From a virus: a stretch of DNA of 25,021 nt. The first letter of the stretch is position 1; every line of letters begins with the position of its first letter. Location of the stretch: the IMG/VR virus record IMGVR_UViG_3300008117_000352, positions 1 to 25,021 of that record; one strand, 5' to 3'. Of this stretch, positions 7,661-24,678 are shown piece by piece. The position numbers were made by a program, and so were the translations under genes. The notes under the pieces are model-generated. The model searched no databases and was not told where the DNA came from. It saw only the letters and a list, made by a program, of their open reading frames with translations.

Positions 7661-9182
7661 ATGGCTTATGCCAATTCCAGTATCAGCGATATCATCGCCA
7701 CTAACATCCAATCCCGTAGCGGTGAACTCGCGGATAATGTCACGAACAACAATGCGTTGCTTCGTCGACTGAAAGAGCGCGGGAATGTCAAAACATTCTC
7801 GGGCGGTAATGTGATTTTGCAAGAAATCATGTACAACGACACCACCACCAACAACACGAATTCCTATTCGGGTTACGAGGTGCTGAATGTCGGTCAGAAT
7901 AGTCCCATTGACATACTAGTGGCCTTGCAAAGCAATTTGCATTGAATGAACTTTGTGAATTCGGTGGAACCCTGACCATTTAGTTGAAGGCAACACCGAG
8001 CCAAGCCCGAAAGGGAAGGCGTAACGACTAGAGGGTGACTCCTCGTAGGGCCAAGTGGCTCGAAGTGCAAAGAACCCGAAAGGGTTGTGAGATAGTCTGC
8101 TCTGCATAGAAATATGCAGCAGTCCGAAAGGGCGGCAAGGAAGTAACGAAACCTTGTGAACATTTGGTAGTGCGGCGCAGTTCAGCATCACGCAGTATGC
8201 GTCTGCTGTGTCCATCTCGGGTCTTGAAATGATTCAAAACTCGGGTAAGGAAGCCATCATCGACCTGCTCGACGGTCGTATGGAGGTTGCCGAGGCGCAA
8301 CTGGCGAACCGTATCAGCGGTGACCTCTACGGTGACGGCACCGGCAACGCGGGTAAGAACCTCACGGGTCTTGCTGCCGCTGTGCCTGACAGCCCGTCCA
8401 CCGGCACCTACGGCGGCATCAACCGTCAGGTGTGGCAGTTCTGGCGTTCGGTTGCCTTCTCGGCGACTGGCGACGGCACGGGCGCTGTGACCAGCAGCAA
8501 CATCCAAGGTTACATGGATGCGGTTGCGGTTCAGTTGATTCGCGGTACCGACAAGCCTGACCTCATCGTTGCCGACAACAACTACTACAAGTTCTACTTG
8601 CAGTCGTTGCAGGCTATCCAGCGCATCACGGACTCCGGTTCGGGCATGGCTGGTGCTGGCTTTGCTTCGCTGAAGTATTTCGGCGCTGGCATGGCTTCGG
8701 ATGTGGTGCTTGACGGTGGTATCGGCTCGTCGTCGTATAACGGCGGTGTCGGTAACGCGAACCATATGTGGTTCCTCAACACCAAGTACCTGATGTTCCG
8801 CCCCCACAAGGACAGAAACTTTGTCCCGATTGGCGGCGACCGTCAGGCTGTCAACCAAGACGCTAAACCTACGATTCACTAATGGCGTCTATAAACCCTC
8901 TCTGATTGACTTGGAAGCCCGGAAGCGGGTAACAGGGGCCAAGCGAAAGCAGGCTGAACGACTAAGTGAGAGGGGACAAGCGAAAAAGGCTTGTCATGCG
9001 ATAGTCTGAACTGCGGTATAACCAAAGAAGCCGCAGAGGGTGACCCGAAGAGGTTGCCCCGCCATCCGAAAGGGTGGTCAGTAGCCGAAAGGCGAAGTAA
9101 CAGAATGATTGTGAAACTGATTGGCTGGGCGGGTAACCTTACCTCCTCCGGCCCGCAGTTCTGCGGCGTGTTGATTAACTGA
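7661..9182 (+). CDS. Major capsid protein, split by two group I introns
   Basis: Spliced coding sequence join(7661..7908, 8159..8864, 9108..9182), 1029 nt, 342 residues. It is the shell-forming HK97-fold-type capsid protein. Exon 1 gives MAYANSSISDIIATNIQSRS through VGQNSP. Exon 2 carries AVSISGLEMIQNSGKEAIID, DLYGDGTGNAGK and LIVADNNYYKFYLQSLQAIQ and ends VNQDA. Exon 3 gives IVKLIGWAGN through CGVLIN. This order and the joins VGQNSPITFGSAAQF and VNQDAIVKLIGWAGN match what I recall of podovirus capsid proteins with no extra residues. Intron 1 splits codon 83 after its second base; intron 2 falls between codons 318 and 319. Unspliced mRNA would give only a 94-residue N-terminal peptide. ATG 7661 follows TAGGAG. 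Confidence 0.9.
7909..8158 (+). ncRNA. Group I intron 1 in the capsid gene (250 nt, no ORF)
   Basis: Self-splicing-type intron with a readable core. P1: CCAUUG (7905-7910) with UAGUGG (7917-7922), placing the required U-G wobble at U7908, the last exon base. P2: 7926-7931 with 7936-7941, GCAA loop. P3: 7951-7957 with 8066-8072. P4: UCGGUG (7961-7966) with CACCGA (7994-7999). P7: GACUA (8026-8030) with UAGUC (8093-8097). P7.1 (8031-8034/8041-8044) and P7.2 (8048-8052/8057-8061) lie between them, as in subgroup IA introns. P8: 8073-8077/8082-8086, GAAA loop. A P9-type hairpin is 8102-8108/8113-8119, GAAA loop. The terminal G is 8158. There is no endonuclease ORF. Alternative U/G site pairs 7917/8167 and 7920/8170 keep frame and length but have no convincing P1. 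Confidence 0.9.
8865..9107 (+). ncRNA. Group I intron 2 in the capsid gene (243 nt, no ORF)
   Basis: P1 is six pairs: exon GACGCU (8859-8864) with guide GGCGUC (8884-8889), giving the canonical U-G wobble at the 5' splice site. The first bases of exon 3 (AUUG, 9108-9111) can pair with UAAU just 5' of the guide, a P10. P3: CCCUCUC (8896-8902) with GAGAGGG (8968-8974). P4: 8910-8914/8939-8943. P5: CCCG/CGGG (8918-8921/8926-8929). P6: GC-GAAA-GC (8943-8950). P7: GACUA (8960-8964) with UAGUC (9002-9006). P8: 8975-8981/8989-8995. A P9-type hairpin is 9011-9016/9031-9036, followed by more hairpins with GAAA loops. The terminal G is 9107. No P7.1/P7.2 and no ORF. An in-frame stop lies at 8880-8882 in unspliced RNA. 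Confidence 0.93.
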
Positions 9183-23628: not shown

Positions 23629-23954
23629 TTCCCGCAGCCTTGTTGCCCATCATCCAACCGTTGCTCTCCAACGGCCTCAACCTCGTTGCCAACGCCGTCA
23701 TGGCAAAGGGCAAGAAGGTGGTCGAGGAAAAGTTGGGCGTAGAACTGAAGCCGGATATGTCCAGCGAGGACTTGGCGAAGATTCAAATCGCCCAGATGGA
23801 GCATGAGGAAGAACTGCTGAAGTTGCGTCTGGAGGAAGACAAACTTGACCTCGCAGAACTGCAAGCGCGGCTGAAGGATACAAACGATGCTCGGGAGCGT
23901 GAGGTGCAGATTGCAAACTCCGACAAGGCTCCGCTCATCAACAAGATTGTTTGA
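23625..23954 (+). CDS. Holin-like protein, N-terminal part, broken by tandem duplication
   Basis: 109 residues before a premature stop: MIPAALLPIIQPLLSNGLNL (hydrophobic), then KKVVEEKLGVEL and a long charged coiled coil (HEEELLKLRLEEDKLDLAEL and on). The chain stops at 23952-23954 after APLINKIV because of a 106-bp tandem duplication. If one copy is removed, the frame runs on to 24273 and gives a 180-residue protein whose C-terminus carries two membrane segments, a layout often annotated as a phage holin. As given, this product lacks both. ATG 23625 overlaps the previous stop. Confidence 0.75.
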   Translation: MIPAALLPIIQPLLSNGLNLVANAVMAKGKKVVEEKLGVELKPDMSSEDLAKIQIAQMEHEEELLKLRLEEDKLDLAELQARLKDTNDAREREVQIANSDKAPLINKIV

Positions 23955-24057
23955 CCTCGCAGAACTGCAAGCGCGGCTGAAGGATACAAACGATGCTCGG
24001 GAGCGTGAGGTGCAGATTGCAAACTCCGACAAGGCTCCGCTCATCAACAAGATTGTT
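23845..24057 (+). repeat. 106-bp tandem duplication inside the holin-like gene
   Basis: Positions 23845-23950 and 23951-24056 are identical (the match extends one more base, to 24057). The unit starts TTGACCTCGC and ends AACAAGATTGT. It codes for the coiled-coil part DLAELQARLKDTNDAREREV and following residues. Period 106 is one more than a multiple of three, so the duplication shifts the frame, producing a stop at 23952-23954. No differences between copies are visible, so it is either very recent or an assembly artefact. Confidence 0.95.
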
Positions 24058-24273: not shown

Positions 24274-24608
24274 GCCTAGTAGCAGAACAGGCGGCGTTCC
24301 TGCTGGATGTCGCCAAACTCATCAACAAGGCTACCGAGTTGGGCTTTGTCGTCACGGGCGGCGAACTTGCACGCACCCCGGAGCAGCAGGCCATCTATGT
24401 GAAGACGGGTCGCTCCAAGACGATGAACAGCATCCACCTCAAGCGATGCGCCATCGACCTCAATTTCTTCCGCGACGGCAAACTTACTTACGACATCCCT
24501 GCGCTCACCCCGGTCGGTGAGTATTGGCAGAGTCTGAACCCGAAGAACCAATGGGGTGGATTTTGGAAGTCGTTCAAGGATGTGCCGCACTTCGAGCGCA
24601 AGGTGTGA
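24270..24608 (+). CDS. Endolysin, M15-type peptidoglycan peptidase
   Basis: A 112-residue single-domain enzyme that would cut peptidoglycan stem peptides at lysis. M15/VanY-type metal ligands are readable: SIHLKRCAIDLNFF (His and Asp of the S-H-x5-D zinc motif, residues about 51-64) and the final VPHFERK (His, with the preceding Asp in KDVPHFE, residues about 103-109). The N-terminal helices (LLDVAKLINKATELGF, then VVTGGELARTPEQQ) are typical of short phage L-Ala-D-Glu or D-Ala-D-Ala peptidases. There is no signal peptide, so it depends on a holin. GTG 24270 has a strong AAGGAGG site and overlaps the previous stop (GTGA). The final stop overlaps the 3' end of a minus-strand tRNA gene. Confidence 0.9.
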   Translation: MSLVAEQAAFLLDVAKLINKATELGFVVTGGELARTPEQQAIYVKTGRSKTMNSIHLKRCAIDLNFFRDGKLTYDIPALTPVGEYWQSLNPKNQWGGFWKSFKDVPHFERKV

Positions 24609-24678
24609 TGGCGAGGAAGGAATCGAACCTTCATTCACGGAGTCAAAGTCCGTTGTCCGACCTTTAGACGACTCGCCA
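24608..24678 (-). tRNA. tRNA-Gln (anticodon UUG)
   Basis: Read on the minus strand, the 71-base gene folds as a complete cloverleaf. Acceptor: TGGCGAG with CTCGCCA (24672-24678/24609-24615). D arm: GTCT with GGAC. Anticodon stem: ACGGA with TCCGT around loop CTTTGAC, giving anticodon TTG after T33. T arm: GAAGG with CCTTC around loop TTCGATT. The discriminator is T (24608) and CCA is not encoded. It overlaps the endolysin stop codon by one base on the opposite strand. It reads codon CAA (and by wobble CAG), Gln codons that the many Gln-rich virion proteins here use heavily. Confidence 0.93.

Follow-up and report, generated by a model that had tools for sequence, protein, structure and literature searches.

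A spliced intron in a phage capsid gene has been described in the Cluster J mycobacteriophage LittleE, where RT-PCR and protein sequencing documented a single intron, considered by the authors most likely group I, and the same paper cites a further capsid intron in the lactococcal phage Tuc2009 (PMC3706429). As in the locus analysed here, the LittleE intron interrupts the major capsid gene after an exon-final U and ends with an intron-final G; however, it is a single intron of 819 bp with an endonuclease ORF on the reverse strand, whereas our locus carries two short ORF-less introns in a different head gene (PMC3706429). For a crAss-like phage, an MCP split into five fragments has been reported, and the introns of these gut phages were found mainly through their endonuclease domains, in contrast to the present ORF-less introns, which are resolved to the base; the available text of that paper gives neither splice sites nor an empty-site comparison for the MCP introns (PMC7886860).

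Short group I introns are numerous in the Jug phages, with a mean of 18.5 per genome and metatranscriptome read support for 37 of 76, but they differ from the ones described here in that terL, nrdD and DNA polymerase, not the capsid gene, are named as their locations, and in that they were found with known subtype models (PMC12363816). In the Bastillevirinae, introns are reported mostly from DNA polymerase genes (PMC11878797); the IA2-type subgroup is named both in that paper and in one on a database of 42,459 introns whose starting point was the Rfam model at a permissive cutoff (PMC11835236), and the MCP genes of mirusviruses contain spliceosomal rather than group I introns (PMC12768974). 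The excerpts of PMC9610469 contain nothing on capsid introns, and the portions covered of the open-licence literature on capsid and phage group I introns describe neither the class of the second of our introns nor ORF-less intron pairs in this head gene. Capsid introns as such are already known from LittleE and the crAss-like phages, and the value of the present locus is a wider class of introns that is missed by the Rfam model RF00028.

The window, as we call the whole stretch of DNA analysed, is a virus record of 25,021 bases in which the capsid gene (7661-9182, plus strand) is accompanied by terminase (phrog_2), portal (phrog_12082) and further head and tail genes. A profile search assigns it to the major head protein family phrog_9953 (E 1.3e-102, over residues 5-341 of a 342-aa version of the product), the match spanning the spliced length of the protein; its best matches in the phage collection are Stenotrophomonas phage BUCT555 and Myxococcus phage Mx8, at about 50% identity, and the same protein is encoded by its relatives, of which the best 80 were kept. 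A scan of genome_contigs yielded nine relatives in MAGs, and since the groups assigned to these are scattered, no host is called. Elsewhere in the window, the start of the terminase region contains a perfect 29-bp tandem duplication (662-719) with two reading frames overlapping; a perfect 106-bp tandem duplication (23845-24056), 106 not being a multiple of 3, covers two ORFs sharing one peptide and is either an assembly artefact or a recent event; and a tRNA-Gln (TTG) is encoded near the record end, at 24607-24678 on the minus strand.

Without splicing, translation from 7661 ends after 94 codons, and taking out two segments fuses three fragments into a single capsid frame, whose product, according to tblastn and the best splice pairs, has 339 aa. 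Exon 1 (7661-7908) covers residues 1-82 plus two bases of codon 83, its fragment matching phrog_9953 at E 3.6e-16 and the tblastn relatives beginning at residue 1; exon 2 (8168-8864) is defined by tblastn and a PHROG match; and exon 3 (9108-9182) corresponds in tblastn to residues 316-339, with the stop codon at 9180-9182. Between them lie intron 1 (7909-8167, 259 nt, IA-like) and intron 2 (8865-9107, 243 nt), all on the plus strand and neither with an ORF of known family. That two ORF-less group I introns cut one major head gene, the core claim of the earlier note, is borne out by exact empty sites in relatives, a U.G pair marking the 5' splice site, a terminal G, P1 and P10 pairings and a covarying fold, and from this comparison the splicing of both is inferred.

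Within the phrog_9953 genes, the resolved insertion sites follow bases 39, about 81, 158, 214, 248 and 945 of the 339-codon frame, and two further places are approximate, near base 203 (L148) and near residue 60 (L385, L478 and L482). The automatic splice search returned no T..G pair at 15 places, namely L148 near base 203, L084 and 13 site-81 loci, and the ends at the last two were set by eye or by string match. Relatives of a GIY-YIG protein (PF01541; E 7.6e-6 in the case of L159) occur in all 27 site-81 loci, and the site-39 intron of L077 has a reverse-strand ORF that is HNH-like by reading but lacks a Pfam match at E<=0.01. Introns at both 248 and 945 are present in the window, L084 and L086, the last being identical to the window across all five segments; the capsid gene of L178 contains three introns (81, 214 and 945), and that of L147 and of the partial L196 contains two (81 and 214). 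The view that two introns in one capsid gene are unusual agrees with the papers covered here but not with environmental contigs, where other capsid genes have two or three.

Most full-length relatives lack introns. Among the 80 displayed rows of a capsid-motif scan, an intron was found in 10 of 57 loci with a full-length capsid gene and in 2 of 23 with a partial one, tblastn detection needing a gap of more than 90 nt, such that introns beside very short exons can be missed; in the best 80 relatives, a set ranked so that split genes fall behind, intron 2 occurred at 14 loci (one cut by the contig end) and intron 1 at none. This distribution bears on the idea that the introns regulate the dose or timing of capsid production, for example through splicing that senses guanosine or folding conditions, instead of being near-neutral passengers. 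Even though such a role would suit their recurrence in major head genes from several head families, their absence from the other 47 of those 57 full-length relatives and their variable presence between close relatives make it improbable.

The boundaries of the two introns were set by a donor/acceptor search that gave a single best pair for each, 7909-8167 and 8865-9107, with T ending the upstream exon and G ending the intron. The boundaries of intron 2 had already been given exactly in the earlier note, and intronless relatives join at that very base. For intron 1, that note had placed the 3' end at 8158 and had described the joining as neither gaining nor losing residues; the end is wrong by 9 nt, the best pair being T7908 / 7909-8167 / T8168, and the count is off by three, the product having 339 and not 342 aa. 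All of the best 80 relatives show at least three gap positions against the 342-aa product, and in the six shown in full the gap is exactly TFG at junction 1 (NSPI---SAAQFS). This surplus TFG places the corrected junction, which reads NSPISAAQFS, at 7908/8168 rather than 7908/8159, and the 3' site at 8158 was therefore rejected. An occasional use of 8158 as an additional 3' site, giving some capsid subunits an extra Thr-Phe-Gly, would be compatible with the G at that position and with a product that stays in frame; however, none of the 80 relatives has residues there and P10, by inspection, fits an exon that starts at 8168 rather than at 8159, and we consider such alternative splicing very unlikely. 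With the window included in both counts and some contigs present under two locus ids, 45 loci share the intron at site 945, with exon-final T and intron-final G (the T..G pair scoring highest in 44 and one point lower in L178), and 15 loci have an intron with the same kind of splice at site 248.

RF00028, proposed in the earlier note as a check on both introns, recognises intron 1 (56.2 bits, gathering threshold 50, E 5.4e-12) and not intron 2, which has no match even at E<=10. In intron 1, the predicted P1 (7905-7908/7919-7922) places a U7908.G7919 pair at the 5' splice site, P3 (7951-7956/8067-8072) and P7 (8026-8030/8093-8097) would form the crossing core, P10 (7914-7918/8168-8172) would reach the downstream exon, and the putative terminal G is G8167, all on the plus strand and all marks of group I. 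Over nine distinct copies, the named structure from P1 to P10, with P7.1 and P7.2, comprises 69 pairs, and 99.5% of its 621 cells hold standard pairs; seven of the 69 pairs changed on both sides, and none of 500 shuffles reached that number or that pairing percentage. Further pair types were no more frequent than in shuffles (498 of 500 as high) because the nine copies are closely related; P1, P3 and P7 do not vary among them and are thus present but not themselves covarying. Four of the five P10 pairs, with the exon starting at 8168, form in all nine copies, and 93.3% of the P10 cells pair.

Hairpins P7.1 and P7.2 between P7 and P3 are a mark of subgroup IA. Both pair in all nine copies of intron 1, which places it in that subgroup, with two pairs changed on both sides in P7.1 and one pair changed on one side in P7.2. 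We take intron 1 to resemble the phage IA2-type introns, with which it shares these hairpins and similar DNA in phage records, whereas it differs from them in its capsid site and in having no endonuclease gene; DNA similar to it was found at E<=0.001 in 121 of 50,697 deposited phage genome records, none of which covers 80% of the intron.

Intron 2 belongs to a compact class. Its predicted elements, again on the plus strand, are P1 (8859-8864/8884-8889, with the U8864.G8884 pair at the 5' splice site), P3 (8896-8902/8968-8974), P7 (8960-8964/9002-9006), P10 (8880-8883/9108-9111) and the terminal G9107, within a core running from P3 to P9 in which P3 and P7 cross. In 12 distinct copies, 99.5% of 740 cells of its 64 named pairs are standard, 21 of the 64 pairs changed on both sides, and 0 of 500 shuffles reached either figure, with further pair types equalled in 13 of 500; when partners were slid by one to three columns, only 31.8-45.3% of the cells paired. 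P4 and P7 are invariant in these copies, and P4 covaries in a wider alignment of 111 cores. A Rfam TPP-riboswitch match at 8387-8489 on the minus strand was discarded as chance (15.2 bits, gathering threshold 54.3, E 7.8).

Lacking an RF00028 match, intron 2 is not filed under that model, even though its group I core is present, and the pairing and covariation of the structure led us to reject its dismissal on that ground. A related proposal would be that it is a structured RNA that is excised but is not a group I ribozyme. The silence of RF00028, at E<=10 in the window and likewise at the class cores of 21 further sources, could be read in that sense; against it, helices P3, P4, P5, P6, P7, P8 and P9 follow the group I order with P3 and P7 crossing, the U.G in P1, the P10 pairing and the terminal G are in place, and seven core helices covary across 111 distinct cores (P7 lying outside that model). 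The proposal thus retains very little likelihood.

The RF00028 comparison found matches at these cores in 0 of 22 sources, comprising the window (E<=10) and L296, L148, L249, L178 at site 945, L388, L478, L385, L406, L458 and 12 more (E<=0.5 or 1). A covariance model of the intron 2 core, R1, scores the window's intron 2 at 177.7 bits (8896-9035), the window's own copy being among the sequences from which it was built. Run over 100 sources, namely the window, L249, L148 and 97 of 107 loci newly fetched by a core-motif scan, R1 had 125 matches at E<=0.01, of which the poorest reached 0.0046. In 111 distinct rows, in an alignment that was fitted to the structure and whose loci were fetched by the P7/P3 motif, 96.8% of cells pair, 31 of 32 pairs changed on both sides, and 0 of 500 shuffles did as well on any of the five measures. 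At least two R1 core matches occur in 20 of the 100 sources (counted from the table); in L391, L431 and L390 two cores flank one short capsid exon, which in L387 is joined to the preceding one. Separately, L404, L408, L384 and L474 show three or four class cores, some of them weak, in about 2 kb, with apparent head-gene exon fragments between them.

The genes that host relatives of the two introns were surveyed by motif scans with at least 120 matches each, such that the counts below are samples; the downstream frame was the longest open frame after the motif, with duplicates removed, instances dropped as too short (5 for intron 1, 30 for intron 2), and a few kept frames that look wrong. Among the matches listed, the intron 2 core motif lay in this capsid gene in 13 of the 107 newly fetched loci, and elsewhere its 64 distinct downstream frames included 21 of the phrog_1357 and 15 of the phrog_283 major head families, five of tape-measure families, three of portal, and single matches to ribonucleotide reductase and homing endonucleases. 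The intron 1 motif (P7 to P9), also among the matches listed, lay in this capsid gene in 55 of 123 loci, and 46 of 56 distinct downstream frames elsewhere were phrog_283 major head, with a few DNA polymerase or HNH frames. Relatives of intron 1 lie upstream of, or near the start of, the phrog_283 P22-like major head gene in L085 (3380-3690) and 45 other loci, and some of those linked to phrog_283 consist of two matching parts with several hundred bases between them, which may hold an endonuclease ORF.

Deposited phage genomes with DNA similar to intron 2 number 4 of 50,697 at E<=0.001. Two of these four are the podovirus record MW202674.1 (2187-3702), where a P22-type coat gene is annotated as two genes around an intron-2-class core, and the cultured Roseobacter phage CRP-118 (OR420741.1, 2998-3397), where a ribonucleotide reductase is annotated in two pieces around such a core; R1 matches both, and also Desulfovibrio phage 7757. 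Intron 2 may represent a large, compact group I class unrecognised by RF00028 and specialised for late virion genes, most of all for the major capsid genes of several head families, inserting repeatedly (two, three or more per gene) and spreading in this gene without a carried endonuclease, a reading that we offer as tentative and as not quite reaching even likelihood.

Regarding mobility, the identity of introns and of their flanking exons can be compared across loci, keeping in mind that structured RNA and codons are different yardsticks. In diverged phages, the introns resemble one another far more closely than do the adjacent exons. Intron 1 is 100% identical between L084 and the window while the flanking exons are at 78.4%, and the corresponding values are 100 vs 87.4 for L088 and 97.3 vs 80.1 for L082; the site-945 copies of L090, L096, L097, L098, L100, L108 and L114 have introns at 94.2-96.3 vs exons at 83.3-86.2. 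Between close relatives, however, the similarity of intron 2 does not exceed that of the exons (L022, 96.7 vs 98.8), and in the most diverged loci, L178, L296 and L324, intron 2 has diverged too, to 71.0-74.1 with exons at 58.0-68.9 (71.0 vs 68.9 in L178 and 74.1 vs 58.0 in L296). As the earlier note had it, neither intron comes with a homing endonuclease: the two antisense ORFs of intron 1 have no Pfam match, no endonuclease family appears among 22 window ORFs, and the window has no match better than E 0.08 to the endonucleases of two relatives. Among the 57 loci with introns at 248 or 945, a relative of these two query endonucleases occurs only in L178, which also has the site-81 intron. The comparison is strong evidence for horizontal movement of the introns, at fixed sites, between related phages.

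The exon bases beside the insertion sites are coupled to intron presence. At site 248, the flank with AGTCCCAT before and TAGTG after the insertion point is found in 13 of 13 distinct intron-containing alleles and 0 of 145 intronless ones (Fisher 2.7e-19), and at site 945 the flank GACGCT and ATTGTG is found in 12 of 13 and 2 of 132, respectively (Fisher 1.0e-14), the exception, L178, retaining GACGCT; GACGCT by itself occurs in 13 of 13 and 19 of 132 (Fisher 3.0e-10), and all these values overstate independence because the alleles are related. The coupled bases are those pairing in P1 and P10, at synonymous positions. In the most diverged bin of site 248 (8 intron-containing and 41 intronless alleles), the 12 bases nearest the insertion point show elevated identity (0.83 and 0.89 vs 0.67 and 0.62) and those farther out are near background, while at site 945 the excess extends for about 60 bases on the upstream side and over all 75 bases read on the downstream side (8 and 43 alleles, some of them close relatives). 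The ligated junction AGTCCCATTAGTGNNGC, that is, the coupled flank without an intron, had 38 matches in viral_contigs, none of them in this gene. Selection for splicing and exon sequence carried along with the intron would both contribute to the coupling. Co-conversion and trans homing have been described (PMC2988022). That the gene is instead a decaying pseudogene or an assembly error with unspliced inserts is very unlikely, since, despite the two tandem duplications elsewhere in the window as possible assembly or decay events, these introns are shared by many separate contigs, the exon frames are intact, synonymous exon bases still match the intron guide and the intron structure covaries.

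The head transcript thus very probably carries two catalytic group I introns, mobile at fixed sites, whose removal would yield the 339-aa head protein. In the mechanism that we propose from their architecture and the known action of group I introns, the internal guide would base-pair with the last bases of the upstream exon (CCAU/GUGG in intron 1, GACGCU/GGCGUC in intron 2), setting the U.G pair at the 5' splice site, which would be attacked by a guanosine held in P7. The terminal G would next enter P7 while P10 (UAGUG in intron 1, AUUG in intron 2) aligns the downstream exon for ligation, and two such reactions would give the head protein, although the copies in the window may splice slowly or not at all. 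For the spread of ORF-less copies, the likeliest routes would be ordinary recombination during co-infection or an endonuclease provided in trans by another phage in the same cell.

With exon bases coupled to the introns and near-identical introns lying in diverged exons, both the spread of the introns and their cost to a highly expressed gene can be tested directly, and a relative of intron 2 is present in a cultured phage, CRP-118. Environmental virology uses capsid genes as markers. If such genes contain several short introns missed by RF00028, capsids are being overlooked or annotated as fragments, as in MW202674.1, and, should the reading of intron 2 as a large class specialised on virion genes be true, this would apply to the capsid genes of many uncultured phages, annotated as fragments.
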